Position numbers and translations under genes: made by a program
NCBI RefSeq assembly: GCF_029953595.1
Contig: NZ_CP124535.1
Span: 2,711,001 to 2,775,000, forward strand
Reading direction: 5' to 3'
DNA: 64,000 nt
Source of the DNA: Fuscovulum ytuae
GTDB lineage: Bacteria; Pseudomonadota; Alphaproteobacteria; Rhodobacterales; Rhodobacteraceae
Notes under the pieces: model-generated
Database searches by the model: none
Told to the model about the DNA's origin: nothing
The model's input: the letters and a program-made list of their open reading frames with translations, nothing else
Shown here: positions 1-57,259 of the stretch, piece by piece
Position numbering within the stretch: the stretch's first letter is position 1
Layout of the letters: each line of letters opens with the position of its first letter

Positions 1-1442
1 ATGCCCCCGGTTTCACAAATCTTGGGCAGCAGCCAGCGTGCCTCTGCCCGCCGGGTATGGCCCACGGAAAGGCGGTACCACACGGATGGGCCAAAATCAC
101 CCTTCTCCCGCGGAGGCAGGGCAGCCGGGGGTGGCAGGCTATCTGATAGGACCTCAGGCGCGGACCGTCCCTCCCGCCAAAGGCGAACAAAGGCGGCAGC
201 AACCTGTTCTGCGCCATATCGTTCAATGAGGGCAGCCCCCATCGATTCCTCATCCCCGGGCGGCAAACCAAGGGCGCTATGTTCCAACAAACGCATATCT
301 TCACGCGCCTGAACTTCATCCGCGCCGGGGGCCTTGCCCCACTCTGCCTCTACCTTTGCACCTTGCAAAAGGCGCTGTGCCTTGCGGAATTCGGCGGGCG
401 GAACGATCAGGGCAGATACACCTTTGCGCCCTGCGCGACCGGTGCGGCCAGACCTGTGCAGCAGCGTTTCCGAATTGGAGGGAAGGTCGGCATGAACCAC
501 AAGTTCCAACCCCGGCAGGTCGATCCCACGTGCGGCAACATCAGTGGCAATACATACCCGCGCCCGCCCATCGCGGAGCGCTTGCAGGGCATGCATGCGT
601 TCTGACTGGCTCAGCTCACCCGATAGGGCGACGGCTTGAAAACCACGATTGGCCATCCGGGCGTAAAGGTGATTCACATTCGCGCGGGTCTTGCAGAAGA
701 CGATAGCCGTGCGCGCCTCGTAAAACCGCAGAAGATTGAAGATCGCATGTTCCCGGTCACGGGCCTGTACGGATAGGGCGCGATACTCGATGTCGACATG
801 CTGCTTCGCCTCACCCTGCGCAACGATCCGCATCGCATCGTGCTGGAAAGTGCCGGCCAAACGTTCGATCTCTTTTGGAACGGTGGCGGAAAACATCAGG
901 GTTCGACGGTCTTCCGGCGCGGCGGCAAGGATGAATTCAAGATCCTCGGCAAAGCCAAGATCGAGCATCTCATCTGCTTCGTCCAAGACGACGGCCTTGA
1001 CGCCAGACAGATCTAGCGATCCGCGTTCAATATGGTCACGCAAGCGGCCCGGCGTCCCAACGACGACATGCGCACCACGTTCCAGCGCCCGCCGTTCGTT
1101 GCGATAATCCATCCCACCAACGCAAGAAGCCAGCATCGCACCCGCTTCGGCGTAAAGCCATTCGAATTCGCGCCGCACTTGCAGAGCGAGTTCGCGCGTC
1201 GGCGCAACGATCAGGGCAAGGGGTTTGTCTGCGAAAAGCAGACGGTCCTGCCCGGCAAGCACATCCTGCGCAATCGCAAGTCCGAAGGCGACTGTCTTAC
1301 CGGATCCGGTTTGCGCGGAAACAAGAAGGTCCCTCGCTGCCAGCTCGTCACCAAGAACGGCTTCTTGAACGGCAGTCAGGCTATCATAGCCCTTGGCCGC
1401 CAATGCCGCAGCCAAGGGCGCGGCAATCATCATCTCTTTCAT
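1..1442 (-). CDS. DEAD/DEAH-box ATP-dependent RNA helicase (C-terminus beyond window)
   Basis: This is an RNA-remodelling ATPase of the DEAD-box family, likely acting in ribosome assembly or mRNA decay. The protein starts MKEMMIAAPLAAAL at 1442 and stays open to the window edge, about 480 codons. Helicase motifs appear in order: the Q-motif region (GYDSLTAVQ), Walker A AQTGSGKT near residue 43, PTRELALQV, GTPGRL, Walker B DEAD in VLDEADEML, SAT in MFSATVPKE, IATDVAARGIDLP, and motif VI RSGRTGRAGRKG. After motif VI an extension of about 130 residues begins, rich in Ala and Arg. Members of the DeaD/DbpA branch carry an RNA-binding domain there, but its end lies outside the window. I therefore call the family only and do not choose between deaD and dbpA. 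Confidence 0.93.
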   Translation of the reverse strand, partial: MKEMMIAAPLAAALAAKGYDSLTAVQEAVLGDELAARDLLVSAQTGSGKTVAFGLAIAQDVLAGQDRLLFADKPLALIVAPTRELALQVRREFEWLYAEAGAMLASCVGGMDYRNERRALERGAHVVVGTPGRLRDHIERGSLDLSGVKAVVLDEADEMLDLGFAEDLEFILAAAPEDRRTLMFSATVPKEIERLAGTFQHDAMRIVAQGEAKQHVDIEYRALSVQARDREHAIFNLLRFYEARTAIVFCKTRANVNHLYARMANRGFQAVALSGELSQSERMHALQALRDGRARVCIATDVAARGIDLPGLELVVHADLPSNSETLLHRSGRTGRAGRKGVSALIVPPAEFRKAQRLLQGAKVEAEWGKAPGADEVQAREDMRLLEHSALGLPPGDEESMGAALIERYGAEQVAAAFVRLWREGRSAPEVLSDSLPPPAALPPREKGDFGPSVWYRLSVGHTRRAEARWLLPKICETGG

Positions 1443-1599
1443 GTCTTTTCCCGAAGGGGCGGCCAATGCGCCCGTGAAGCACCAGTTATCGGCACCTCAT
1501 TCCCCTTCGCAGGACCGGCCTCCCAAACCGCCGCCTGCCCCGGAATCCGCGGGCCGTAAGGGCGGGCATAGGGTAAAACGGCCCGCTTGTATACCCGCG

Positions 1600-1848
1600 T
1601 TAAAAGCGAAGGGCGTGCAGCAGGTCAAAGCGAACCTCTGGCTCACCGTCTGATTTGGCCGAAGCGGAGAGGATCGAAAGACCCGTCACAACATCTGACC
1701 GTGTGGTCGTAACCCCGCTGCCGGCATTTTCGACCGTCATGGCAATGTGCGCCATCGGACCGCGCAGCATAAGCGTTTCAGCGGTTTCAACCGCAAGAAG
1801 TGGGGTGATCGTCACAGGGACAAGTAGGGCAAGAGTGCGGATCATCAT
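1600..1848 (-). CDS. small predicted secreted protein, unknown function
   Basis: An 82-residue protein that I do not recognise. The N-terminus MMIRTLALLVPVTITPLLA is a plausible signal peptide: one basic residue, then a hydrophobic core. The mature part would be about 60 residues, mixed polar, without cysteines. A GGAG ribosome-binding sequence lies 7 bases before the chosen ATG. It lies just upstream of the DEAD-box helicase gene on the same strand, separated by about 157 bp, and diverges from the DUF4170/waaA/lpxK operon. The interval 1443-1599 between it and the helicase holds no further gene that I can see. It could still be a spurious frame, but the signal peptide and ribosome-binding site favour a real gene. 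Confidence 0.5.
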   Translation of the reverse strand: MMIRTLALLVPVTITPLLAVETAETLMLRGPMAHIAMTVENAGSGVTTTRSDVVTGLSILSASAKSDGEPEVRFDLLHALRF

Positions 1849-2043
1849 GGCATGGCTCCGGGTGAAATCGTCACGCCTTCAATTGCAAGGCCGGTGCCGG
1901 AGTTGTGCGCCCGGTCCGTAAGGAGGGAGGGAGACCCATTCTTCCGAAGGTATCTGGGATGGGGCGTAGGTCTCTTGACCCTGCGCGCACCGCCGCTAGG
2001 CTGCGCGCCAATTCAATGAATACCCTTGTCCGGAGCGAAACGC

Positions 2044-2289
2044 ATGACCCAGCGCCTACACCTTGTCTTTGGCGGCGAACTGGTGACGCCTGAAAAGAAC
2101 ATCTTCAAGGACGTTAGCAAGATCCACATCGTGGGGATGTTCCCGGATTATGCATCGGCCTTTTCTGCCTGGAAGGCCGAAGCGCAGCGCACCGTTGATA
2201 ATGCGCATATGCGATACTTCATTGCCCATATCCATCGCTTGAGGGATGAGGCACAGTCGGGTTCCGCAACCGAGGAACTGGGTGCCTGA
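2044..2289 (+). CDS. DUF4170-type small protein, first gene of the Kdo/lipid A operon
   Basis: An 81-residue soluble protein (MTQRLHLVFGGELVTPEK...) resembling the alphaproteobacterial DUF4170 family, whose function is unknown. The N-terminus reads like a beta strand followed by a short insertion, and the middle (FPDYASAFSAWKAEAQRTV) is a helix. An in-frame GTG/ATG further upstream is possible, but GGAG seven bases before this ATG fixes the start. The stop is only 13 bp before the waaA start, so the two are probably co-transcribed. In related genomes this small gene also tends to sit beside the Kdo transferase, which suggests, but does not prove, a link to lipopolysaccharide assembly. The segment 1849-2043 upstream is the divergent promoter region. 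Confidence 0.75.
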   Translation: MTQRLHLVFGGELVTPEKNIFKDVSKIHIVGMFPDYASAFSAWKAEAQRTVDNAHMRYFIAHIHRLRDEAQSGSATEELGA

Positions 2290-2302
2290 GAGCCGCCCCC
2301 GT

Positions 2303-3499
2303 ATGGCCTATTCCCTAGGGCTCACGCTTTATAATCTTGGAGGTCGACGCGACGCTGGACCGAGTGTGGAGCGTTTGCCAAGACCGCAGGGCCGACTGGT
2401 CTGGTTGCACGCGCCATCGGCCGAGTCGGCACGTGCTTTGTTGGAACTTGGCCGTAGATTGAAGGAAGAGGATGGCCTGCCCTTTCTTCTGACCTGTCCT
2501 GATCCCTTGCCGCAACGCAAAGGAACCTTGATCGAGTTGCCACCGCCCGACAACCCGCAGGATGTGCGCGCTTTCCTTGATCATTGGCGGCCAGACATTG
2601 CCATCCTGTCTGACGGCGAAATCCGTCCCGCCCTCGTTCATGAGGCGATCGAACGGAAGTTGCCGCTGATGATCGTCGCAGGAAGACAACCTTCGTTCCT
2701 GCGTGAACGGGATGGATGGTATCCCGGTCTCATGCGTGGACTTTTGGCGGAATTCCATGCCGTTCTGACAATTGACGAACCCTCTGCCCGCGCCTTTCGA
2801 AAGGCGGGGGCAACTCTTTCGGCTGTGGAGGTCACGGGCAAGCTCGAAGAGGAAAGCGCCGCCCTCCCCTGCCTTGAAGCAGAGCGCGACGCCCTGGCAA
2901 GGCAACTTGCTACGCGTCCTGTCTGGTTAGCGGCGGCACTGCCCGAAGCGGAAGAGCAAGCCGTGATTGCCGCCCACAGGGCAGCCCTAAGATTGGCGCA
3001 CCGATTGTTGCTTATTGTGGTTCCCGCAGATCCTGCGCGAAGCCTTCCTTTGGCAGAGCGGATGGAGAAAGAGGAAGGTTGGACCGTTGCCCTGCGAGCC
3101 GAAGAACAGGAGCCAGACCCTGAAACGGAAGTTTATGTCGCGGACTCGGATCGTGAATTCGGGCTGTGGTATCGTCTTGCCCCGGTCACCTATCTTGGTG
3201 GCAGCCTCGCCGGGGACGGCTGCATCCGCGACCCGCTTGAGCCGGCAGCGTTAGGGTCGGCCATCTTATACGGTCCGCGGCCCGGACCTCATGGCGTTGT
3301 CTTTGGCCGCTTGGGTGCAGCGCGGGCGGCGCGGGCTGTAGGATCGGCTACGGATTTGGCCGAGGCATTGGGTGATCTGCTTTCGCCCGATCGGGCAGCA
3401 CGCCTAGCGCAAGCGGCATGGGCTGTCGCATCAGATGGGGCCGAGGTTACGGATCGCGTTCTTACAAAGATCCGCAACATCATGGATGGGGAAGGCTGA
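2303..3499 (+). CDS. waaA: 3-deoxy-D-manno-octulosonic acid (Kdo) transferase
   Basis: WaaA transfers Kdo from CMP-Kdo to the lipid A precursor at the cytoplasmic face of the inner membrane. The chosen start gives 398 residues. The N-terminal Rossmann-like domain contains [11 protein letters not shown] (residues 32-42), the region where the family carries its catalytic glutamate. The C-terminal domain contains the donor-site segment [21 protein letters not shown] and ILYGPRPG. It is shorter than the roughly 420-residue enterobacterial enzymes: the usual N-terminal membrane anchor is reduced to about 20 residues, and the typical HAxSxGE motif reads HAPSAES, with Glu one position early. Its stop overlaps the lpxK start by one base (TGATG), so the genes are translationally coupled. 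Confidence 0.87.
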
Positions 3500-4488
3500 T
3501 GCGCCCGCCCGCCTTCTGGTACACCGCACCCGAACGACCCGCGTTTGTGGCAAGGCTATTGACGCCATTAGCCCTTGTTTATGCAGCAGCAACCGCCCGT
3601 CGATTGCGGCAGCAGGGGTATCGGGCAAAATGCCCCGTGATCTGCGTTGGCAATCTGAATGCAGGCGGAACCGGAAAGACGCCCACTGTTATCGCCTTGC
3701 TGGAAAGCTTTGCAGCACGTGGTGTTGTGGCACATGTCGTATCGCGCGGGTACGGTGGTCAGTTAGAGGGACCAGTCCAAGTTCAGGAGCGTTCGCATTC
3801 GCCGAAGGACGTGGGGGACGAACCTTTGCTTCTTGCCGCCTTTGCCCCCGTCTGGGTGGCAAAGGACCGTGCGGCAGCTGTGCGCGCGGCAGAGGCCGCG
3901 GGCGCGCAAGTCATTATCATGGATGATGGGTTTCAGAACCCGTCCGTCCAAAAGGACCTTAGCATCATTGTCGTTGATGCCCTGCGCGGCTTTGGGAATG
4001 GCCGCTGTCTTCCTGCCGGCCCCTTGCGTGAACCAGTGGAAATCGGTTTGCGTCGGGCCGATCTTTTAGTGTCGATAGGCGATGCGGCGGCACAGTCGTC
4101 CTTCGCGTCGCGCTGGGCTTTGCATGTGAAAGTGCCGCATTTGAAGGGTGAACTCGCCCCCTTGCAGATGGGAATGGATTGGACAGGGCTGCGCGTGATC
4201 GCCTTTGCCGGCATCGGACATCCTGAGAAGTTTTTTGCCACGCTGCGCGCCGAAGGCGTGGAACTTGTTCGGACGGTGCCTTTGGACGATCACCAGCCCC
4301 TGACAGACGCGCTTATGGGGCGGCTAGAATTAGAGGCAAAGACGATCGGTGCGCAGCTTGTGACCACGGAAAAGGACGCCGTGCGGCTGCCTGCTTCTTT
4401 TCGGCAGAAAGTTTTGACCTTGCCGGTCAGGTTGCGTTGGCAGGATGACAGCCCTTTGGTCGCAGCCTTGACCCAGCTTGGCCTTTAG
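3499..4488 (+). CDS. lpxK: tetraacyldisaccharide 4'-kinase
   Basis: LpxK phosphorylates the 4' position of the tetraacyldisaccharide to give lipid IVA, the step just before Kdo addition by the upstream gene product. The start at 3499 overlaps the waaA stop by one base; longer in-frame versions would lie inside waaA. At 329 residues the length is normal. A membrane-associated N-terminal helix ([17 protein letters not shown]) is followed by [16 protein letters not shown], in which GGTGKTP (56-62) is the P-loop. DDGFQNPSV and GPLREP are further LpxK signatures, and [11 protein letters not shown] closes the C-terminal part. The gene converges on the CoA-transferase gene and overlaps it by four bases at the stop codons. 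Confidence 0.95.
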
Positions 4489-5612
4489 GGAGTGACGTCT
4501 GCCTGATGTTCACCAAGCTTCGGCGCCGGGCGATCAAGGGAAAGGCTGGCGTCGGAAAAGGTGAAGGGCGATCGCACACCCGGAATCCCTTCGGGATCAA
4601 GGCGCATACCGCGGGCGATGACCTGAGGGTCCGAAAAAACCTCTGACAGATCATTGATCGGGCCTGCGGGCACACCTTGCGCTTCGCAAGCGGCAAGGAG
4701 ATCGGCCTTCTTCCAACGCAAGGTCGCCTCTGTCAGTGCCTCTGTCAGCGGCGCGCGGTTGCGGATGCGGTCGGCGTTGGTCAGGTAGTCCGGCGCTTCG
4801 GCCAACGCATCAAGGCCCAGGATGGAACACAACTTGCGATATTGCCCATCATTCCCGGTGGCCAGAATGATCCAGCCGTCTGCGCAATCAAACACCGCAT
4901 AGGGCGCAAGGTTCGGATGGGCGTTGCCCATCTTTGCCGGTGCCTCTCCAGTGGTAAGGTAGTTCATGTTCTGGTTCGCCATGATCGCCGTGGCGACATC
5001 CATCAAGGCCATGTCGATCTGCTGTCCCTTGCCTGTCACCCCGCGCTGGATAAGGGCGGCAAGGATCGCTGTCGCGGCATAAACCCCTGTAAATACATCG
5101 GTTACTGCAACACCGACCTTCTGGGGCTGGCCATCTGGTTCGCCCGTCACGCTCATCAATCCGGCCATGCCTTGGATGATGAAATCGTATCCTGCGCGGT
5201 GGGCATAGGGGCCGGTTTGGCCGAAGCCGGTGATGGAACAATAGATCAGACGGGGGTTCAACTTTTGCAGCGAAGGCCAGTCGAGGCCGTATTTGGCAAG
5301 GCCACCCACCTTGAAATTCTCGATCACCACATCGGCGTCGGCGACCAGTCGGCGCACCATTTCCTGCCCTTCAGGGGTGCGGAAATCGCAGATGACGGAA
5401 CGCTTGCCGCGGTTCGTGGCATGAAAATAGGCGGCCGAGCGGTCACCGTCCCGATCGATGAAGGGAGGCCCCCAACGGCGGGTGTCATCGCCTTCTGGCG
5501 CTTCGACCTTGATAACGTCTGCACCAAGGTCAGCAAGCGTCTGACCGGCCCATGGACCGGCCAGAATCCTTGCAAGTTCAATGACTTTTATGCCTGCAAG
5601 GGGTGTGGCCAT
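4485..5612 (-). CDS. family III CoA-transferase (CaiB/BaiF type)
   Basis: A 375-residue CoA-transferase of the formyl-CoA/carnitine class, which moves CoA between carboxylic acids. [19 protein letters not shown] is the family N-terminus, with [19 protein letters not shown] following. The catalytic aspartate is expected in [29 protein letters not shown] and [16 protein letters not shown] are also typical. The acyl substrate cannot be deduced. It lies directly upstream of no obvious pathway gene: one base separates its start from the stop of the DsbA-like gene, so these two may share a transcript. Confidence 0.9.
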
Positions 5613-47654: not shown

Positions 47655-49184
47655 ATGAGGGGGCCGCATAATATCTGGCGCCTGATCCGCACGGGCGCGA
47701 CGCTGGAACGCACCGGGGCGATGGCCGTGGTGCTTGAGGCGTTTCGGGCACCGCCGTCGATTCGGATCGCGGCGCGGCTGCTTGGCTGGCCGTTCAAATG
47801 GCTGGGGTTGAAGGGTGATCCGGCGCTGCCGCCTGCGACGCGGGCGCTGACGGCGCTGGGTCCGGCTTATATCAAGTTCGGGCAGATCCTTTCCACGCGG
47901 CCCGACATCGTGGGCGAGGAACTGTCGCAGCAGTTGAAATATCTGCAGGACCAGTTGCCGCCTTTCCCGCGCACTGTGGCCAAGAAGATGATCGAGGCGG
48001 AGCTTGAGCTGCCCGTCGATCAGGTGTTTTCGGAATTTTCCGAGCCCGTGGCGGCGGCGTCCATCGCGCAGGTGCATCGGGCGCGGCTGGCGGATACGGG
48101 GGAAGAGGTTGCGGTCAAGGTGCTGCGCCCCGGGATCGAGCGGGCGTTTCGTAAGGATATCGATGCCTTTTACCTGATCGCGCGCACGATCGAGATCGTG
48201 GCCCCGCAGACGCGGCGGCTGCGCCCCATGGATGTGATCGCCCATTTCGAGGGCGTGGTGATGGGCGAGTTGGACTTGCGGCTGGAATCCTCGGCCGCGG
48301 CCGAGTTCGCGGCGAATACGGAAAAGGATGAAGGGTTTCGGGTGCCGAAGCCGATCTGGTTCCTGTCGGGCAAGACGGTGATGACGCTGGGATGGGCGGA
48401 AGGCATCGGGATGAATGACAACGCCGCAATCGATGCGGCGGGGCATGATCGCAATGCGCTGGGGGCGCGGGTGCTTTCGCTGTTCCTGAACCATGCGCTG
48501 CGGGATGGGTTCTTTCACGCCGACATGCATCAGGGGAACCTGAAGGTGGGGGCGGATGGGGCGATTATCGCCTATGATTTCGGGATCATGGGGCGGATCG
48601 ACGAATATACCCGCCGAGTCTATGCCGAGATCCTGATGGGGTTCATCCGCAAGGATTATCGCCGTGTGGCCGAGGTGCATTTCGAGGCAGGTTATGTGCC
48701 TGCGGATCGGGATATCGACGAATTCGCGCGGGCTTTGCGGGCGGTGGGCGAGCCGATCTTTGGCATGGATGCCAGCCGGATTTCGATGGCACGGCTGCTG
48801 GCCTATCTGTTTGAGGTGACAGAACGGTTCGGGATGCAGACGCGGACGGAGTTGATCCTGTTGCAACGGACGATGGTGGTGGTGGAAGGTGTGGCACGAT
48901 CGCTCGATCCGCATATCAACATTTGGCAGGTCGCGAAGCCGGTGGTGGAAAGCTATGTCGCGCGGAATGTGGGGCCTGCGGCGCTGCTGCGTGATCTGGT
49001 GTTGACGGCGCGGGTTCTGTCGCGGTTCGGGCCAAAGCTGCCGCGGATGGTGGAGGCGGCGCTGATCGCGCAGGCGGACCCGCCGAAGCCGTTGGCGCCG
49101 CCACGGCGGCGGTCGCGGTGGTATCTGATCCCGCTGGGGGCTGCGGTCTTTGCGGCGGGGATCGGGCTGGGGTCGTTTCTTTAG
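47655..49184 (+). CDS. ubiB: ubiquinone biosynthesis regulatory kinase-like protein UbiB
   Basis: A 509-residue member of the ABC1/ADCK/UbiB atypical kinase family needed for ubiquinone assembly. The family KxGQ motif is in AYIKFGQILSTRPDIV, followed by LQDQLPPFP. The Ala-rich nucleotide loop is AAASIAQVHRARL, and VAVKVLRPGIERAFRKD carries the lysine. The metal-binding region is FFHADMHQGNLKVG and IAYDFGIMGRI. One C-terminal membrane span (LIPLGAAVFAAGIGLGSFL) anchors it. It abuts ubiE and converges with a phosphotransferase gene, the stops overlapping by four bases. Confidence 0.95.
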   Translation: MRGPHNIWRLIRTGATLERTGAMAVVLEAFRAPPSIRIAARLLGWPFKWLGLKGDPALPPATRALTALGPAYIKFGQILSTRPDIVGEELSQQLKYLQDQLPPFPRTVAKKMIEAELELPVDQVFSEFSEPVAAASIAQVHRARLADTGEEVAVKVLRPGIERAFRKDIDAFYLIARTIEIVAPQTRRLRPMDVIAHFEGVVMGELDLRLESSAAAEFAANTEKDEGFRVPKPIWFLSGKTVMTLGWAEGIGMNDNAAIDAAGHDRNALGARVLSLFLNHALRDGFFHADMHQGNLKVGADGAIIAYDFGIMGRIDEYTRRVYAEILMGFIRKDYRRVAEVHFEAGYVPADRDIDEFARALRAVGEPIFGMDASRISMARLLAYLFEVTERFGMQTRTELILLQRTMVVVEGVARSLDPHINIWQVAKPVVESYVARNVGPAALLRDLVLTARVLSRFGPKLPRMVEAALIAQADPPKPLAPPRRRSRWYLIPLGAAVFAAGIGLGSFL

Positions 49185-49957
49185 GCGATGCTGAAAGCGG
49201 TGGCGTAATCGGCATCGCCGCGCGCCGCCTTCCACGCGCAATGGGCGCGGATGCGCCAGTGATACAGCGGAAGGAGCGTTCGGGTCCGGTCTGCGATGGC
49301 CTGATCGGGGTATGCGTTCAGGATCGCCTCGGCCCAGCCTTCGGGCGGTTTTGCGCCGGTATAGAGCCACATCATGGCCGGAGAGGCGAGGGTGGCAAGG
49401 TCTTCGGCTGGGTCGCCGAGGCCGGGGCATTGCCAATCGATCAGCAATGGGCCCTGCGCCGTGGCAAGGATGTTGCCGGGGACGGGGTCGGCATGGACGG
49501 GGCGCGGCGGGATGGGGGGAAGCTGCGGATCGGGGGGCGGGAGCAGGTCTTGTGGCGCGAAGCGGGCGGCATCGGCAAGGATGGCGGCGCTGCCATTGGG
49601 CAGGGGGCGGAAGGTGCCTTGTGGGACGGGGGTCATGTGCAGGCGGTGCAGCATGCGGGCGACGGGGGCAGGATCGCCGCGCCAAGGCGTGCCATCCACA
49701 TGGTCATAGATGAGCCAGTCATCGCCCGACGCGCGCAGGCGGGGGGCGAGGGCATGGGGGGAAAAGAGGGCAAGGGCGCGCGCCTCGGCCTGCGGGTCGT
49801 TCGGGAAAAGGGGGCTGGCGGCGGCCGGGTCGTGGCGTTTCAGGACAAGGGGCCCGATGCGCCAAAGGCGGTTGGTGCGGCCACCGGGCAGCGGTTCCCA
49901 TGCCGCTTGGGCGGGAAGGAGGCGGGCGAGGGCGGCTGTGGCGGGGTCGTGCGGCAT
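49181..49957 (-). CDS. aminoglycoside/choline-kinase-like phosphotransferase (APH family)
   Basis: A 258-residue protein of the protein-kinase-like APH superfamily. The start MPHDPATAALARLL at 49957 removes a 12-residue extension. LPGGRTNRLWRIGPLVLKRH contains the glycine loop and ATP-binding lysine. The catalytic loop is PRPVHADPVPGNIL (HxDxxxxN), and LLIDWQCPGLGDPAEDLATL is the DxD-like metal-binding segment. The substrate may be choline, an aminoglycoside-like sugar or another small alcohol. It follows flgD with 45 bp and may be read from the same transcript, but has no obvious flagellar role. Confidence 0.85.
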   Translation of the reverse strand: MPHDPATAALARLLPAQAAWEPLPGGRTNRLWRIGPLVLKRHDPAAASPLFPNDPQAEARALALFSPHALAPRLRASGDDWLIYDHVDGTPWRGDPAPVARMLHRLHMTPVPQGTFRPLPNGSAAILADAARFAPQDLLPPPDPQLPPIPPRPVHADPVPGNILATAQGPLLIDWQCPGLGDPAEDLATLASPAMMWLYTGAKPPEGWAEAILNAYPDQAIADRTRTLLPLYHWRIRAHCAWKAARGDADYATAFSIA

Positions 49958-50002
49958 GGCGGCGGACCGTAGCGAGATGGCCCGCCGCTGCAAGGGGGTG
50001 GA

Positions 50003-50659
50003 TCAGCCATCGCGCAGGGCGAGGACGTCCTTTTCGGCCACCTCAACCCCGCCTTTGAGGATAAGGAGGACGGAATTTCCATCGCGCCGCGCCTCTTCGA
50101 TGGGGGCGAAGCTGGCTACGGGGTCGGTGGCGATGACGGCATCACCCCGGCTGCTTTCGACGGTCAGGCTGTAGCGGCCTTTGGGCAGGGGGGAACCCGT
50201 GGCATCGGCACCCAGCCATTGATAGGCGCCGCCTGACAGGGGCAGGGTTTCACGGGCCAGAACTGACCCGGCCATGTCGCGAATGACGAGGACGGCCTGA
50301 TCGGCGGCGGCGGCGGGTTCGGGGAAAAGGGTGACCGGGCTGCCGTCGAAATGGACATCGGCGGTGGTGCGCGCCTCTTTCCCGATCCAGCCGGAGAGTT
50401 GTGCAAGGTTCATGAAGCCCAGCTGCGAAGAAAGACCCGTGATCAGGCTGTTCGTTTGCACCTGCTGTTCCACCCCCGAAAAGGTGGCCAGTTGCAGTGC
50501 GAAATCAGTGGAGTCGAGCGGGTTGAGTGGATCCTGATTCTGCAACTGCGTCGTCAGCATCTTGAGGAAGGTGGTGAAATCCGAAGTGATCGCTGCGGGG
50601 GCATTGCCGCCTTGCGCAGGGCGCTGCGCGGCGGAGAGGGGATTGGTTGTGATGTCCAA
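50003..50659 (-). CDS. flgD: flagellar hook assembly scaffold FlgD
   Basis: FlgD caps the growing hook and is required for adding FlgE subunits. I used a TTG start at 50659 (AAAGGA eight bases before), giving 218 residues; the open frame upstream lies inside the fliK 3' end. The N-terminal export/assembly segment contains DFTTFLKMLTTQLQNQDPLN, the family signature, followed by DSTDFALQLATFSGVEQQVQ. The central region is the FlgD Ig-like domain (VRDMAGSVLARETLPLSG; GRYSLTVESSRGD). It lies 13 bp after fliK on the same strand. Confidence 0.93.
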   Translation of the reverse strand: MDITTNPLSAAQRPAQGGNAPAAITSDFTTFLKMLTTQLQNQDPLNPLDSTDFALQLATFSGVEQQVQTNSLITGLSSQLGFMNLAQLSGWIGKEARTTADVHFDGSPVTLFPEPAAAADQAVLVIRDMAGSVLARETLPLSGGAYQWLGADATGSPLPKGRYSLTVESSRGDAVIATDPVASFAPIEEARRDGNSVLLILKGGVEVAEKDVLALRDG

Positions 50660-50672
50660 GCTGGGGGTCCTT

Positions 50673-53063
50673 TCACAGACGCAGATCAAGCAGGCCAAGG
50701 CCTGCGGTGGGAAGGCGATGCAGGGGGGCGGGGTCTGACCCTTGCGATTGTGGTGAGGACGCGCCGCCGCCCGCCCCGCCTGAGCGGGCATCACCGCCCG
50801 GTGATCCCGCGCCTGATTGGCCGCCGCCGGGCGCAAAGCTAAGGCTGGCCTGCGCAAAGCCCGCCTGCCGCAATTCGGCGAGGATCTGATCCCCCTGTCG
50901 GCGAAGAAGATCGAGCGTGGCAGCTGCGTCGACCATGAGGTGAAGGTGCAGGCCTTCGCCGCGCGACGTCACCTCAAACCGGAGGGCGCCGAGTTCGACC
51001 GGGGCGAGGGTGACCGAAACGATCCCTTCCTTGCCGATATTGGGCAGGATCTGCCGGATGACGAGATCGGGCAGGGCTGTTGGAGGGGCTTGAGGGAGGG
51101 AGGTTTTTCCGACGACCGCGTCGCCACGCGGAAGGGCGCGATCTGCCAAAGGCAGGTCCGCGGCGATGGGGTCGGGTGCGACATAGGCCATGGGTTCCAG
51201 CAAAACGGGAGCTCCGCCCAAGGGGGCAGGTCCGGCAACCGCCTTAGGGCGGATGGTCGCGTTTGGCTGATCCCGTGCGGTCGGCTGATCGGTGGGGGTG
51301 AGGACATGCGCGGCGGTTGCGGGGTGCGGGTCTGCCGTGAGCCAAGAGGTGGGGGCGGATGGCGTTGGGTGCGAGAGGGGTGGGGGGGCGTGGTCATTTA
51401 AGGGCGCAGGCTGTGCCATGCCGAGGACCGCCATCGTTGTCGGTGCCGTGGTCATGAGGGGAGGGGGGGGCGCCACCGCAGGGGGCGGTGCCGCAGACGC
51501 ATTGGGGCGGATGGTCGCGTTTGGCTGATCCCGTGCGGTCGGCTGATCGGGGGGAGTGAGGACATGCGCGACGGTCGCGGGGCGCGGGTCTGCCGTTAGC
51601 CAAGCGGTGGGGGCGGATGGCGTTGGGCGCGAGAGGGGTGAGGGGGCGTGGTCAGGCAGGGGCGCAGGCTGTGCCATGCCGGAGACCGCCATCGTTGTCG
51701 GTGCCGTGATCATGAAGGGAGAGGGGGGCGCCACTGCAGACGCAGGGTCATCTTGCAGGGGAATAGCTGAGACGGGTGCCTGTTTGGCCATCGCGACGGG
51801 CAGCGGCGCGATATCCGCCCTGTCAGACGGGGGCAGGCGCGGCGCAAGGTCAGCTGTGATGAGGGATGGTTTGGGGTGGCTGTGTCCTAGCGTGGGCGCG
51901 TGTTCCACCTGCGCCATGGGCGGGTTGGGTGTGGTCGTCCGTTCGACAACGGTCAGTGGGAAAGCCGTGGGCACCGTCAGCGATGGGATGGGCGCGTGGG
52001 CGATGGGTGTGCTTGGCTGGCCCGTGCCGCCAAGGCCGTTCCCGGCCACAGGTGGGGCGACCGTGGATTGGGATGGCATGGTGGTCTGCTCGACCGGGTT
52101 CCTCGGGCTTGGCGCGAGGTCGCCCAGCGGGGGGGCCGTGCCTGCCGCCCCTACCATGGGGGCAGCGGTTCGGCCCGACGCTGCCACGGTTTGCGGGGTC
52201 TGGCCCGCCGGAGTTGTGGCGCGCGGCGGCGGGTCTTGGACAGGCATTGCCATCTGTTCGATCGGGGCTGGCCAGCCAGCGGGGGTGATCGGCGGCGGGG
52301 CGGAAGGTGCGACGGCGGGCTGGAACGGACCTGAACCTTTGGCCAGCGGGGTCGCGGTGGGGGCATCGCCCCCTTTTGCCGCAGGTTGAGGCGGGTAGGA
52401 GATTTTGTCCGCCACTGCAGGCGATGCCTGACTGGCCGATTGCGGGGCGCGTGCAGAAGGTTCGACCACCTGGTCGCTGAGACGGGCCGCGGCCTGCACC
52501 GGTGCAAACAAGCGCGCGCCGGGCGGGTTATCCGGCCGGCTTTGGGTCATTGGGGCGGGCCATGGTGAAGGCGCGCCCGATGCCGCAGCGCCCAGCGCTA
52601 AGCCGGGGGAGGGCGGAAAAAGATGCATCGCATTTTCCGCATTTTCCGCAAATTTCGGGATGGGTTTTACAGCGTCCTCGATGGCGGGGGGTGCCGATGT
52701 CTCAGGCCCAAGCTGCAGGTCCGGGGTGGAAGGGGGCTGCGACGGCACCGCCCAGAAGGGCAATGGGAGAGAGGCATCGGGCGATTCGCTGGCCTGCGGT
52801 GCGGGCATCTGATCCCGTTCCGCCGGGGCGGACGCATCCGCGGCAGTGGCCATATCCGGCGCGTCATCGGCACCTCTTTCCGGGGATGGCTTGGGCGCGG
52901 CGGCGGGCAGGGGTTGCGCAAAAATCGTAAGAAAATCGGGCGAAACGCGCCCGTCCACGGCAAATCTGACCAAGGGATCGGCGGGGCTGCGGCCGCCGAC
53001 GGGGACGGGCAGCGCCGGATCAAGAACTGGGGCCAATGGGACGGAGACGGGGGAAGGGGTCAT
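50673..53063 (-). CDS. fliK: flagellar hook-length control protein FliK
   Basis: A 796-residue FliK. The secreted molecular-ruler part is long and rich in Pro, Ala and Thr. The C-terminal hook-substrate switch domain is recognisable: VTLAPVELGALRFEVTSRGE, then LHLHLMVDAAATLDLLRRQG and LRQAGFAQASLSFAPGG. An in-frame tandem duplication of 86 residues spans about residues 440-606 (motif APTTMAV...GMAQPAP...ARDQPNATIRP twice). The start at 53063 was preferred over 53096. It diverges from flgJ across a 110-bp gap holding a CtrA-like box, and flgD follows. The unusual length may reflect the duplication. Confidence 0.88.
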   Translation of the reverse strand: MTPSPVSVPLAPVLDPALPVPVGGRSPADPLVRFAVDGRVSPDFLTIFAQPLPAAAPKPSPERGADDAPDMATAADASAPAERDQMPAPQASESPDASLPLPFWAVPSQPPSTPDLQLGPETSAPPAIEDAVKPIPKFAENAENAMHLFPPSPGLALGAAASGAPSPWPAPMTQSRPDNPPGARLFAPVQAAARLSDQVVEPSARAPQSASQASPAVADKISYPPQPAAKGGDAPTATPLAKGSGPFQPAVAPSAPPPITPAGWPAPIEQMAMPVQDPPPRATTPAGQTPQTVAASGRTAAPMVGAAGTAPPLGDLAPSPRNPVEQTTMPSQSTVAPPVAGNGLGGTGQPSTPIAHAPIPSLTVPTAFPLTVVERTTTPNPPMAQVEHAPTLGHSHPKPSLITADLAPRLPPSDRADIAPLPVAMAKQAPVSAIPLQDDPASAVAPPSPFMITAPTTMAVSGMAQPAPLPDHAPSPLSRPTPSAPTAWLTADPRPATVAHVLTPPDQPTARDQPNATIRPNASAAPPPAVAPPPPLMTTAPTTMAVLGMAQPAPLNDHAPPPLSHPTPSAPTSWLTADPHPATAAHVLTPTDQPTARDQPNATIRPKAVAGPAPLGGAPVLLEPMAYVAPDPIAADLPLADRALPRGDAVVGKTSLPQAPPTALPDLVIRQILPNIGKEGIVSVTLAPVELGALRFEVTSRGEGLHLHLMVDAAATLDLLRRQGDQILAELRQAGFAQASLSFAPGGGQSGAGSPGGDARSGGAGGGASSPQSQGSDPAPLHRLPTAGLGLLDLRL
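51247..51745. repeat. tandem duplication of an 86-codon unit inside fliK
   Basis: Two in-frame copies of about 258 bp lie head to tail (about 51505-51745 and 51247-51487, minus strand). They share TAPTTMAV, GMAQPAP, PTPSAPT, WLTADP and DQPTARDQPNATIRP, and differ at scattered codons, for example SGM versus LGM and ADPRPA versus ADPHPA. Exact edges may be off by a few bases. Confidence 0.85.
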
Positions 53064-53108
53064 GCGACAGCTTTCTTGGGGTCTGTCCCGCAGCATCTGC
53101 GCAACCGA

Positions 53109-53173: not shown

Positions 53174-53464
53174 ATGACCCCTGATCTGTTGCCGCTGAGG
53201 CCCCCTGCCCTGCCCGGGGCGCGCCTGATCGAAAGGGCGCAGGCGTTGGAGGGCGCCTTTCTTGCCGAAATGCTGCGCCATACCGGGCTTGGGTCCGGGG
53301 ACGGAGAAGGATTTGGAAGTCTACAGGGCGCCTTTGGTGGCGGGATCGGTGAAGAGCAGTTTGCGTCCTTCCTACGTGAGGCGATGGCGAAACGGATGGT
53401 CGATGCGGGTGGGATCGGCTTGACCGAATCGCTGCTGCGGTCGCTGGGGCCGCGCGAAGGATGA
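53174..53464 (+). CDS. flgJ: flagellar rod-binding protein FlgJ (N-terminal domain only)
   Basis: A 96-residue protein matching the rod-binding domain of FlgJ: ERAQALEGAFLAEMLRHTGL, GGGIGEEQFASFLREAMAKR and IGLTESLLRSLG. As in other alphaproteobacteria the muramidase domain of enteric FlgJ is missing. I chose the ATG at 53174; ATG at 53159 and further upstream frames are less convincing. It overlaps flgN by four bases and diverges from fliK, so the two small genes form one unit with the flagellin remnant downstream. Confidence 0.85.
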   Translation: MTPDLLPLRPPALPGARLIERAQALEGAFLAEMLRHTGLGSGDGEGFGSLQGAFGGGIGEEQFASFLREAMAKRMVDAGGIGLTESLLRSLGPREG

Positions 53465-53933: not shown

Positions 53934-55352
53934 CTAAAACAGGAAAGACGACATGTCTTCGATTCTTACGAATACCGGCGCGATGGTTGCGCTGCAGACG
54001 ATGAAAAGCATCAACATGAGCATGACCCGGACGCAGTCCGAAATCTCGACGGGCAAGACCGTGGCCACGGCAAAGGACAATGCGACCGTCTGGATGACCT
54101 TCGCGTTGGAGGAATAGGCCCGCTGCGTTTCGATGAGTGAGGTCAGTTCTGACGCGACATCCGTGGTGGACCCTTCGCGCGAAAAGCCCACCATCGTCCC
54201 GACCGGGCCAGTGCCCGCATCCCAAAGCGTGAAGACACCCGATTGCGGCGAGACCTGATAGGTCTGGTTGCCCAAAGCGCGCAGGCCGTTGACGTTTGGC
54301 ACATCGACCAGCGGGATCTGGTAGAGGCGGCGGGTGAAACCAGTGTCGTAGGTGGCTTTGATGAAGCCTTCCTCATCCACCTCAAGCCCGGTGAGGGTGC
54401 CGACGGGGGACCCGTTCTTGGTGATGCCGACGGGGGCGAAGCTGTCGGACAGCTGAGTGACACCCGTCGCCTCACCCGGAGCGCCGACGAATATGTCGAG
54501 AGGACCGCCAAGCAGCGCAACGTTCAGCATGCCGGTCGCGGCATCGTAACTGCCAGCGGAGAGCGGGGTCACCGAGGCGATGGAGCCGCCGGTGCCACGG
54601 TTGGCGTCGAATTCAAAGGTGAATTCCCCGATCAAGGCGTTTGATTGCAGGGGGTCGTTGATGCGGACAGTCCAGATATTGGAGGTGCCGCTGGTGGGAA
54701 TGGTGGGTGTGAAGGATAGGTCAAGTGTCCTTGGCGCACCCAGATTGTCGAAATACTCGATCGAGAGAGGAAGGGCATCGCCATTCCCGCTTGAGGCGGT
54801 GTTGTTGGCGGGGAGGTTCAGCCCAAGGTTCACCCGCGTGGTCGGGTCACCGACACGTTGGTTCGCATCAATGCGGACGGGAACAAGGCCGATATCGGAA
54901 TCGCGTGGAAATTCGCGGACGGTGCCATCCACATTGACCGGCCAGCCCAGCAGAACAAGGCCCGTCGGCGTGGAGAGATAGCCCTGTTCATCGGTTCTAA
55001 ACGACCCCGTCCGCGTCAGTTGCATGGTGTTTTGGGACGGATCATTGCCATCGCCCGCCTGCGGACGGACCGGAAGCATCCCGCGCCCGGAAATCGCGAT
55101 ATCAAGCGCATTGCCCGTTGCCACAAGCGGCCCGGTTTCATCCAAAAGCCGCAGGGTCGAGGCGCGCACCCCACCGGCCGAGAATTTTGCCCCGCCCGGC
55201 CCGTTGCCGATCATCAGGCTTTCGAAATCGGTCTGTGCCCGCCGGTAGCCGAAGGTGGAGGAGTTGGCGAGGTTGTCGGAAATTGTCGCCAGCCGCGTGG
55301 CATTGGCATTCAGCCCGGCCACGCCTGCGTTGAGCGAAGAGGAAATCGTCAT
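53934..55352 (-). CDS. flgE: flagellar hook protein FlgE with replaced C-terminus
   Basis: Residues 1 to about 421 are a normal hook protein: the N-terminal rod-type coil MTISSSLNAGVAGLNANATR, LATISDNLANSSTFGYRRAQ, the variable central domains, and SELTSLIETQRAYSSNAKVI near the end. FlgE normally finishes about 15 residues later with a helix like DEMLQTxxxLKR. Here, after AKVIQTV, about 50 residues follow (ALSFAVATVLPVEISDCV...) that are the antisense reading of a flagellin gene 5' part and are strongly hydrophobic. The helix that packs the D0 domain is therefore lost. The protein may not polymerise properly. See the flagellin remnant at 53953-54117. Confidence 0.88.
   Translation of the reverse strand: MTISSSLNAGVAGLNANATRLATISDNLANSSTFGYRRAQTDFESLMIGNGPGGAKFSAGGVRASTLRLLDETGPLVATGNALDIAISGRGMLPVRPQAGDGNDPSQNTMQLTRTGSFRTDEQGYLSTPTGLVLLGWPVNVDGTVREFPRDSDIGLVPVRIDANQRVGDPTTRVNLGLNLPANNTASSGNGDALPLSIEYFDNLGAPRTLDLSFTPTIPTSGTSNIWTVRINDPLQSNALIGEFTFEFDANRGTGGSIASVTPLSAGSYDAATGMLNVALLGGPLDIFVGAPGEATGVTQLSDSFAPVGITKNGSPVGTLTGLEVDEEGFIKATYDTGFTRRLYQIPLVDVPNVNGLRALGNQTYQVSPQSGVFTLWDAGTGPVGTMVGFSREGSTTDVASELTSLIETQRAYSSNAKVIQTVALSFAVATVLPVEISDCVRVMLMLMLFIVCSATIAPVFVRIEDMSSFLF
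53953..54117 (+). pseudogene. fliC: 5' remnant of a flagellin gene (fliC), truncated by a junction with flgE
   Basis: A 54-codon open frame with a good ribosome-binding site (AGGAAAG). Residues 1-46 or so are a flagellin N-terminus: MSSILTNTGAMVALQTMKS, then TRTQSEISTGKTVATAKDN, the spoke of the flagellin D0/D1 domain. After DNATVW the reading is MTFALEE and a stop, which comes from the antisense strand of flgE. The junction lies within about 54086-54093 (ccgtctgg), a sequence expected in both genes. The remaining ~85% of flagellin is absent. It follows flgN on the same strand. Confidence 0.85.
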
Positions 55353-55428: not shown

Positions 55429-56283
55429 TCAAATCCCTGACAATGCCGAAGCGCGACGCAGAAGCACGACCTCGATCCGGTTGTTGCGGGCGGCGGTCGG
55501 GTCCGTGCTGGCGGGGCGGCGGTCGGCATAGCCGGTGACGCGGTGCAGTCGGGCCGGATCAAGGGTCGTTTCGGCCAGAAGCGCGCGCGCCTGTTCTGCC
55601 CTTGCGGTGGAAAGATCCCATGCGGGATCGCGGCGCAGCGGGGCGGGATAGGCGCGGACATGGCCGTTCACCGCGATCCGGTTGGTGGCCAGCGCCGCCA
55701 CTTCGGCCACCACGGCCATAAGGTCGCGCAGAAGAGGCGAGGGTTCGGCGGTTTCTTCGCGGAACAGGCGGCCTTCGGCGGTATCGAACAGCTCAATCAC
55801 CAACCCTTCGTCAGACAGGCGCGTGATGACATGCTGGCGCAGCAAATCTGAAACCGCGCTTTCCCCGGAATAGGAGAGAAGGCGCTTTTCAGCCTCACGC
55901 AGGGTGGCCTCTTCCGCGGCGTCGTCCGGTGAGAGCGGGCCGCCATCGGAGCGAGGGCGGGCGGTCTGGATCGGGTTGTTGGCCGATGCCCCGGACCCGT
56001 TCAGCGCAAGCGTCGGTTCGGACAGGATCGATTCACCCCCAAAGGGGCCATCGCCGCCCCCAGCGACCCGATTGATGGGCACGGTGGGGTTGAAGTAGTC
56101 GGCGATACCATCGCGTTGCTGTTCTGTCGTGGCATTCAGTAGCCACATGAGAAGAAAGAAAGCCATCATCGCCGTCACGAAGTCGGCATAGGCGACTTTC
56201 CATGCGCCGCCATGATGGCCGCCCCCGGCGACCACCTTCTTGCGTTTGACGACGATCGGCGCCGCGTTCCGCTGCCCGGTCAT
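55429..56283 (-). CDS. motB: flagellar stator protein MotB
   Basis: A 284-residue stator subunit that anchors MotA to peptidoglycan. The N-terminal VVAGGGHHGGAWKVAYADFV and TAMMAFFLLMWLLNATTEQQ contain the single membrane span with the proton-channel aspartate in YADFVTAMMAF. The periplasmic OmpA-like domain includes NRIAVNGHVRAYP, DLSTARAEQARALL and VTGYADRRPASTDPTAARNN, the peptidoglycan-binding motif. motA is not in the window. It lies between an uncharacterised gene and flgE on the minus strand; a six-of-eight TTTA-N7-CTAA box overlaps the upstream gene's stop. Confidence 0.93.
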   Translation of the reverse strand: MTGQRNAAPIVVKRKKVVAGGGHHGGAWKVAYADFVTAMMAFFLLMWLLNATTEQQRDGIADYFNPTVPINRVAGGGDGPFGGESILSEPTLALNGSGASANNPIQTARPRSDGGPLSPDDAAEEATLREAEKRLLSYSGESAVSDLLRQHVITRLSDEGLVIELFDTAEGRLFREETAEPSPLLRDLMAVVAEVAALATNRIAVNGHVRAYPAPLRRDPAWDLSTARAEQARALLAETTLDPARLHRVTGYADRRPASTDPTAARNNRIEVVLLRRASALSGI

Positions 56284-56341
56284 ACCACACCCCAATTTTC
56301 ACACCCGGGGTCGAGGTTAGGCGCGAAGGGTTTATCTGCCG

Positions 56342-57259
56342 CTAACGGATCGGATTTTCGATATCTTGGGGCAGGCCGCAAAGATGTAGGCGCGTGAACA
56401 GGCCAATTGCTGCGTAATCTGCGCAAAATTGCCGGGCGACGCCATGGGTGAGCGCGGTGTCGAGAACGATGGGGTCTGCGGGCGAGATCACCTCGAACCG
56501 CGCGCGGGGTTGGCCGGTGCGCAGGGACAGGAAATCGGCCAGTTCGGAATTGGTCCAGCCGGAGACGCCGATGAGGTGGAGTTCGAATCGCTGAAAGCTG
56601 CGGTCGACGGCGATGACATCCTGATGGGATAGATGGGCCAGGGCGCGGTCACGCAGGATGGCGGGCAGGCCTTCGGCTAAAGCGCCTGTCGGTGCGCTTG
56701 CCAAGGCGGCGAAGGGGCGGAGTTGGCGCAGGATGGCCGCGCGCCGTTCCTTGCCAAGGGGGCGGGCGGGAAAGATGTCATACCGGGCGGTGAGGGGGTC
56801 AGATGTCAGGTGGATCAACCCGCGCAGGTGGCGAAGTTTCGTCGGTGACATGAGCCTGCGTTCTGCAGAGTCGGCAGGCAGGACCAGCCCGCCAGGGCCA
56901 AGCAGGCGGGCATGGACCGTGCCAACATCCATGTCGAGCAGGCGTGCCAGACGTTGGGTGAGACGCGCATGATCGGCCCAGATTGCAGGTTGCAGCGACA
57001 GATCGGTGCCGGGCTGATCGGTGTCGGGGCGAATGGAGGCGGGCCAGCCCAAGGCCTGAAGCAATGTCCGAAGGCGAGTCGCGTCGCTGCGCGAAAGCCC
57101 TTTTCGTGCAGGTTCTTGGGGAGAGGAGAGGCAGAGATTTAGACTGTTGGGATCAAGGTCGAGATAGCGGGCCACGACGGCGCGCTGAACCGCGCCGCCC
57201 AAGCTGGGCGATCCAAGATAAAGGCCATAGCTGCATTCGCCGGAGAGCGAGGCGGACAT
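56342..57259 (-). CDS. uncharacterised protein of the flagellar cluster
   Basis: A 305-residue soluble protein that I do not recognise. It has no signal peptide or membrane span. The sequence is Leu- and Arg-rich with helical stretches (LTQRLARLLDMDVGTVHARL; RAAILRQLRPFAALAS; LPAILRDRALAHLSHQDVIA). Two weakly helix-turn-helix-like segments occur near residues 95-115 and 230-250 (GWTNSELADFLSLRTGQPRA). It precedes motB by 58 bp on the same strand and has a CtrA-like box upstream, so it is probably part of the flagellar regulon. Confidence 0.6.
   Translation of the reverse strand: MSASLSGECSYGLYLGSPSLGGAVQRAVVARYLDLDPNSLNLCLSSPQEPARKGLSRSDATRLRTLLQALGWPASIRPDTDQPGTDLSLQPAIWADHARLTQRLARLLDMDVGTVHARLLGPGGLVLPADSAERRLMSPTKLRHLRGLIHLTSDPLTARYDIFPARPLGKERRAAILRQLRPFAALASAPTGALAEGLPAILRDRALAHLSHQDVIAVDRSFQRFELHLIGVSGWTNSELADFLSLRTGQPRARFEVISPADPIVLDTALTHGVARQFCADYAAIGLFTRLHLCGLPQDIENPIR

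Follow-up and report, generated by a model that had tools for sequence, protein, structure and literature searches.

A base-identical joint between flagellin and flgE recurs where the archetypal flagellar cluster has been deleted in Rhodobacterales

In the window, the 64,000-nt stretch of Fuscovulum ytuae DNA analysed here, a flagellin gene and the hook-protein gene flgE meet tail to tail at a joint that leaves neither gene intact, within a short group of flagellar genes (Table 1). The locus is a remnant of the archetypal Rhodobacterales flagellar cluster, which corresponds to the fla1-type in the accessible text of Tomasch et al. 2025 (PMC12363192).

Table 1. Features around the flagellin–flgE joint (window coordinates)
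Feature	Position	Strand	Basis or remark
flgD	50003..50857	-	Pfam FlgD, FlgD_ig
fliK	50673..53096	-	Pfam Flg_hook
flgJ (rod-binding domain only)	53174..53464	+	Pfam Rod-binding, 28.1 bits on the ORF from 53036
flgN-position gene, 127 aa	53461..53844	+	No Pfam match; named from its position and the earlier note
flgE-frame tail: 49 antisense-flagellin codons and stop	53934..54084	-	Sequence reading
Flagellin head, codons 1–44 of archetypal flagellin	53953..54084	+	Pfam Flagellin_N, 31.9 bits (protein residues 4–47)
Truncated flagellin reading frame, 54 aa	53953..54117	+	Terminating TAG comes from antisense flgE
Joint (last flagellin base | first flgE base)	54084..54085	.	Comparison with intact G010 and intact flagellin heads
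flgE codons 1–423, hook protein minus last 12 residues	54085..55352	-	Pfam Flg_bbr_C, Flg_bb_rod; 87% to intact G010 FlgE
motB of the same cluster remnant	55429..56295	-	Pfam MotB_plug and OmpA
305-aa gene beside motB	56342..57259	-	No Pfam match; same place in relatives, kept in most of the genus

Read as sequence, the first 44 flagellin codons run directly into antisense flgE at 54084|54085, and on the opposite strand the flgE frame (53934–55352 as a whole, starting at 55352) passes from 423 normal codons into 49 antisense-flagellin codons. Over residues 1–47, the flagellin-head frame shows 95.7% identity with the intact flagellin of the nearest intact genome, G010. In intact relatives the FlgE C-terminus is ...VIQTV-DEMLQETTNIKR, and 12 flgE codons are thus lost in the window. 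The joint reads DNA-T-VW, in which ACC (Thr) is flgE sequence, and Thr at the second codon after DN was found in 0 of 45 and 0 of 13 intact flagellin heads (a few genomes being counted twice); the crossover is therefore placed at 54084|54085, just left of ccgtctgg. An earlier note on this DNA, made from the sequence alone, had correctly described a flagellin that starts at 53953 and turns into antisense flgE, while its lengths need revision: the flagellin part is 44 rather than about 46 codons by the position of the joint, and flgE has lost 12 rather than about 15 codons when compared with the ends in intact relatives. The octamer ccgtctgg, in which that note had put the join, is indeed present at 54086–54093 and lies beside the crossover instead of containing it.

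What separates the two sites in intact genomes has been deleted here. In G010, whose FlgE is 87% identical to that of the window, the sites lie on one contig in matching orientation with 24,505 bp between them, bearing out the earlier suggestion of a deletion; the corresponding stretch measures 24,702 bp in G013 and 28,200 bp in G463, of the genus Sulfitobacter. The flanking gene order is the same in the intact genomes G010 and G008 on both sides of the gap, as expected for a remnant of the archetypal cluster. G008 belongs to the genus of the window and has the same FlgE as Tabrizicola sp. TH137, a match by which that genus would probably be Tabrizicola. The archetypal FlhA gene sits inside the deleted stretch (C85:65623 in G010). 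The source genome (4.19 Mb in 3 contigs, completeness 100, the window occupying 2,711,001–2,775,000 of the 3.90-Mb contig) has a single FlhA, which is part of another flagellar system, as are 5 of its 6 Flg_bb_rod matches, the sixth being the FlgE of the window; the absence of the remainder of the cluster was judged from these FlhA and rod-protein matches. An inversion that had moved the missing genes elsewhere was considered and rejected, since the genome retains neither the FlhA nor the rod proteins of this cluster and has no second copy of the joint region.

The other flagellar system lies about 0.4 Mb from the window, at 2.345–2.404 Mb (G000 C1:2345745-2404000; L004, L005 and L016), looks complete and is of a different type from the deleted one. 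It encodes an intact 490-aa flagellin, FlgI, FlgD, FlgE, MotB, FliD, FlhB, RpoN and a sigma-54 activator, together with an FlgL-like protein (Flagellin_N only) and an FlgK-like frame with a rod-protein match; this last frame is at least 1,317 aa long. Its sigma-54, sigma-54 activator and FliD (by Pfam) are shared with the Fla1 system of C. sphaeroides, of which we take them to be the marks (fla3-type in Tomasch et al.). The likeness is one of gene content only, and this Fla1-like system is not the deleted one. Nor is the window a relic of the second system, whose FlgE is only about 30% identical. The earlier note had remarked on the absence of flgK, flgL and flgI from the locus; flgI as well as flgL-like and flgK-like genes occur in the second system. 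The guess in that note that a flagellin lives elsewhere is right as to the presence of an intact gene, which belongs, however, to a different flagellar system.

The same joint is found in other genomes. We searched 60 relatives, and genome contigs, with the whole flgE frame, and matches in relatives continued across the joint into antisense flagellin; 22 joined loci were confirmed on DNA. The joint is base-identical in all 27 loci that were read at base level, which represent 26 genomes (L149 and L057 look like one genome) and at least 12 GTDB genera including that of the window. In each of the 27 the last flagellin codon is followed by ACN, the codon that flgE has there, and the joint context is DN[A/S], with the exceptions DSA (G005) and DGS (G431). 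Of 14 matches obtained in a family sample of 394 genomes, 13 are joined; the other, L150 (G133), shows no FlgE motif and is an intact flagellin. Within the genus of the window (n = 19), 7 genomes are joined, 11 are intact and 1 is without a FlgE match. Archetypal FlgE was found in 35 of 62 genomes of the genus Sulfitobacter, 7 of which are joined (5 newly read); 2 of the 35 are cut by contig ends and 3 were judged by match range only. One further match in this genus search (G502) ran to 441, yet the locus is intact. The remaining 27 of the 62 have no archetypal FlgE row, and it seems that the locus can also be lost altogether.

Deletion, and its recurrence at one base, are thus shown, and the joined loci in relatives rule out a single event restricted to the source strain. 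Other truncations of the flgE end were absent from 80 loci and from the genus of the window, apart from contig-end cuts and one frameshift. No flagellins truncated at other joints were found with a query that would miss heads cut much earlier; 13 weak flagellin matches proved to belong to different flagellins, of which one is truncated by the end of its contig. Among 21 joined genomes, 13 have no FlhA and 8 have one, and five intact genomes have 2 or 3. On this gene content the 13 genomes without FlhA probably have no flagellum, and some joined genomes, including the source genome, are predicted to retain another one. Loss of filament formation, which the earlier note had offered as one explanation, is not implied by the gene content of the source genome and may hold for those 13.

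How the joined loci are related was examined on trees and in the sequence beside the joint. On a FlgE tree of 119 rows (from which the duplicates L138 and L149 and the frameshifted L142 were left out), 17 changes are required to place the 20 joined rows, starred branches forcing 15 of these, and the mean for shuffled labels is 18.8; with the genus Sulfitobacter added (143 rows, dropping L021 and L047, copies of L022 and L019), 24 joined rows need 22 changes, 18 of them forced, against a shuffled mean of 22.4. Joined rows are scattered on these trees like shuffled labels. A protein tree of the neighbouring akr-xylA-xylB genes for the genus of the window (17 rows) requires 5 changes, 4 of them forced. 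Over the 30 bp next to the joint on each side, in a comparison without the G468, G431 and G182 heads and the G435 flgE end, G000 is closest to intact G010 (97% on both sides) and G002 to intact G013 (93 and 100%), identities that exceed those to every joined genome compared. G006 is tied, with 90 and 93% to both joined G017 and intact G001. For CW3, the flgE side is 93% identical to joined LH_M50 versus 80% to intact G463, and the flagellin side is 80% identical to both alike.

Single positions were compared in the same way. In 12 of 15 comparisons by eye, the codon before the joint (Ala or Ser) agrees with that in the flagellin of the closest intact relative, where about half would agree by chance; it departs from the local flagellin in the Loktanella locus, G158/G170 and G199. 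The codon pair GGA-TCN, found in 1 of 58 intact heads, is common to G431 and a Sedimentitalea MAG. On the flgE side, where 25 joined ends were set against 115 intact ones, 0 of 60 positions mark the joined alleles at p < 0.05. On the flagellin side (22 joined and 58 intact heads, three joined heads being unparsed), 5 of 60 positions differ at p < 0.05 in a test uncorrected for relatedness, none of them within 9 bp of the joint; the intact heads in this test were filtered to exclude Thr, and the Thr counts above (0/45, 0/13) come from other head sets. Taken together, these comparisons suggest that most joined loci are likely to have arisen by independent deletions.

At the two sites, 25 intact genomes share an imperfect 12-bp direct repeat with a mean of about 9 of 12 matches, outside which the flanks are 27–28% identical, that is, random. 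Intact kin share about 1–3 bases at the crossover itself, which lies at the edge of the repeat and outside its best matching block, the shared motif being mainly right of the joint. The first base right of the joint is a constant mismatch between the parents, and all 27 joined loci have the base of flgE there. In four intact genomes, 1,567 to 139,675 of 8.9 million 12-bp pairs are at least as good as that of the joint, and exact repeats of 12–15 bp are present elsewhere in the same two regions. Repeat-mediated deletion would lead one to expect a crossover within a repeat common to the two parents, and a repeat better than the surrounding pairs; both were looked for and not found. The microhomology that the earlier note had read as a signature is therefore weak as a cause, because the crossover sits at the repeat edge and equally good matches exist for a great many other pairs. 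Both sites also carry a partial inverted repeat, forced by an Ala-Lys pair in both proteins. When direct and inverted repeats are scored together, the joint ranks in the top 4 (G013) and top 2 (a Marivivens MAG) of 5.6 million pairs; across 11 genomes, 1 to 4,550 pairs are as good on both counts (37–4,550 in the nine genomes other than these two) and up to 21,417 by sum. A hairpin of the joined sequence beats shuffles in 2 of 5 sequences, the fifth of which was mistyped at its start.

Slippage or template switching deletes DNA between short direct repeats. The present case shares with that textbook deletion two similar short sites in direct orientation, of which one hybrid copy is left, and is unlike it in that the repeat is imperfect, is 24–28 kb apart, is not the best available pair and has the crossover at its edge. 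The reading towards which we lean is that about 24.5 kb of the archetypal cluster, from flagellin codon 44 to flgE codon 423, has been deleted repeatedly and with base precision, most likely by a jump during replication or repair. Strongly conserved protein sequence (AKDN[A/S]-AVW in flagellin and NAKVIQTV-DE in FlgE) fixes both sites and thereby supplies intact genomes with the same direct and partial inverted repeats 24–28 kb apart. Replication or repair would occasionally jump between them, the new flgE-sense strand continuing on flagellin; a strand that copies flgE and then switches to flagellin would retain the base of flgE in every event. The jump would belong to lagging-strand synthesis if the origin lies beside dnaA, as we infer. 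Descendants without a flagellum, or with another one, would persist as young twigs with their outer genes mostly open. The evidence as a whole points to an as yet unexplained deletion hotspot rather than a one-off accident; it weakly suggests a template switch as the mechanism, and weakly that the deletion events are young.

In joined genomes the motB, flgE, flgJ, fliK and flgD frames are mostly open (the motB of G158 and G002 being unresolved); fliK is without a match in four of 19 joined loci, besides the short L049, and G310 has a frameshift in FlgE. In L057, G468 and G471 a TGA in place of the Trp codon ends the flagellin head. Branches to joined FlgE carry 66 nonsynonymous and 326 synonymous changes in six triples, two of which share a sister, against 29/296 in the intact sisters, and two control triples give 33/213. 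Either the deletions are young or FlgE is still functional; youth is favoured because the export path should be missing without FlhA. One case speaks for a retained role of FlgE and against youth: the joined genomes G006 and G018, which keep another flagellum, are 98% identical over 17.4 kb, and their FlgE differ by 1 nonsynonymous and 14 synonymous changes (P = 1.1e-7 under neutrality), with 3/11 in MotB and 2/7 in the matched part of FlgD. At these loci (G006 C1:276604 and G018 C4:196013; L131 and L136), FlgE and MotB look to be under purifying selection with the cluster gone. An in-frame stop in the flgN of both genomes was considered as a sign of a pseudogene and dismissed, since it is the protein's normal end.

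Instead of arising repeatedly, one old deletion allele might have spread by homologous recombination, for instance through gene transfer agents, with later exchange making its flanks local. Such agents carry about 4 kb, enough for the joint and too little for the missing 24 kb. This would explain the identical joint for free and agrees with the label-like scatter of joined rows on the FlgE trees; a short donor tract would easily escape notice because species differ little in the first 30 bp, and the flgE side of CW3, closer to LH_M50 than to G463, and the tie of G006 between G017 and G001 fit as well. Yet in G000 and G002 the match to the intact sister extends as far as the joint from either side, most comparisons show the local flagellin's codon before the joint, and the flgE side has no marker base common to joined alleles, and we consider a spreading allele unlikely. 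A dedicated enzyme, either a site-specific recombinase or a single-strand nicking-joining enzyme cutting both sites between -1 and 0, would account for a base-precise, recurrent joint with little homology and a fixed polarity (flagellin left and flgE right in 27 of 27), and the position of the shared motif, mainly right of the joint, would suit it. Such an enzyme is hypothetical, however, its sites would be ordinary conserved coding sequence and the shared motif is short, which makes it still less probable. The bolder proposal that Rhodobacterales have a built-in, enzyme-driven excision of their main flagellar cluster, a one-way switch from swimming to non-swimming, strikes us as improbable.

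Recurrence at one base would also be seen if selection retained only this join, the cut hook protein (ending after VIQTV) or the 54-aa head being useful without its flagellum. The apparent constraint on FlgE, MotB and the matched part of FlgD between G006 and G018, and the mostly open outer genes in genomes without FlhA, could be read in this sense. The constraint presumes, however, that the common ancestor of G006 and G018 was joined, which follows from parsimony alone; the new tails vary among genomes in length and sequence, the FlgE of G310 is frameshifted, the head ends at the Trp codon in the three cases above, the flagellar export route should be missing without FlhA and the joined branches have a somewhat raised ratio. 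We hold selection of this kind to be quite doubtful. An assembly artefact or a chimeric contig, the latter suspected in the earlier note, is extremely improbable, as the same joint stands in 27 loci of 26 genomes, four of which consist of one contig (G006, G182, G310 and G410), and the source genome nowhere encodes the FlhA of the deleted cluster.

In the accessible text of Tomasch et al. 2025 (PMC12363192), fla1 is described as vertically inherited with sporadic independent losses, being absent, for example, from 7 of 50 clade 1 genomes. Those losses concern the same cluster with the same gene order, motB-flgEKLI ... flgD; breakpoints are not given in that text, whereas losses of the type in the window share a base-exact joint and keep the outer genes. 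We found no literature report of the shared joint, and the accessible parts of PMC12363192 and PMC13386836 contain no description of it. Flagella are commonly lost, but standard deletion mechanisms do not predict that unrelated lineages share a breakpoint when long repeats are lacking. Should the hotspot be real, a single PCR spanning the two conserved genes would give the rate and pathway of motility loss in the laboratory, and would show whether large gene losses in Rhodobacterales are steered by mutation beyond selection alone. The joint also provides an easy genomic marker for lineages without the archetypal flagellum.

Finally, the surroundings of the joint are conserved to different degrees. 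The motB gene is next to flgE in all 19 joined loci compared, an ORF of about 100–127 aa occupies the flgN place in 15 of 19, and ubiB adjoins flgD in 15 of the 18 loci whose flanks are long enough, the exceptions being G182, G431 and CW3; mutM, rpsT and dnaA lie further out in many joined loci. In the window, an APH-type phosphotransferase gene (49181–49993; Pfam APH, 66 bits) lies between ubiB and flgD; it is found in the same place in joined genomes of the genus and, outside the genus, in only two joined loci. The 305-aa gene beside motB shows 34–62% identity within the genus where it is found, and evolves much faster than its neighbours akr, xylA and xylB.
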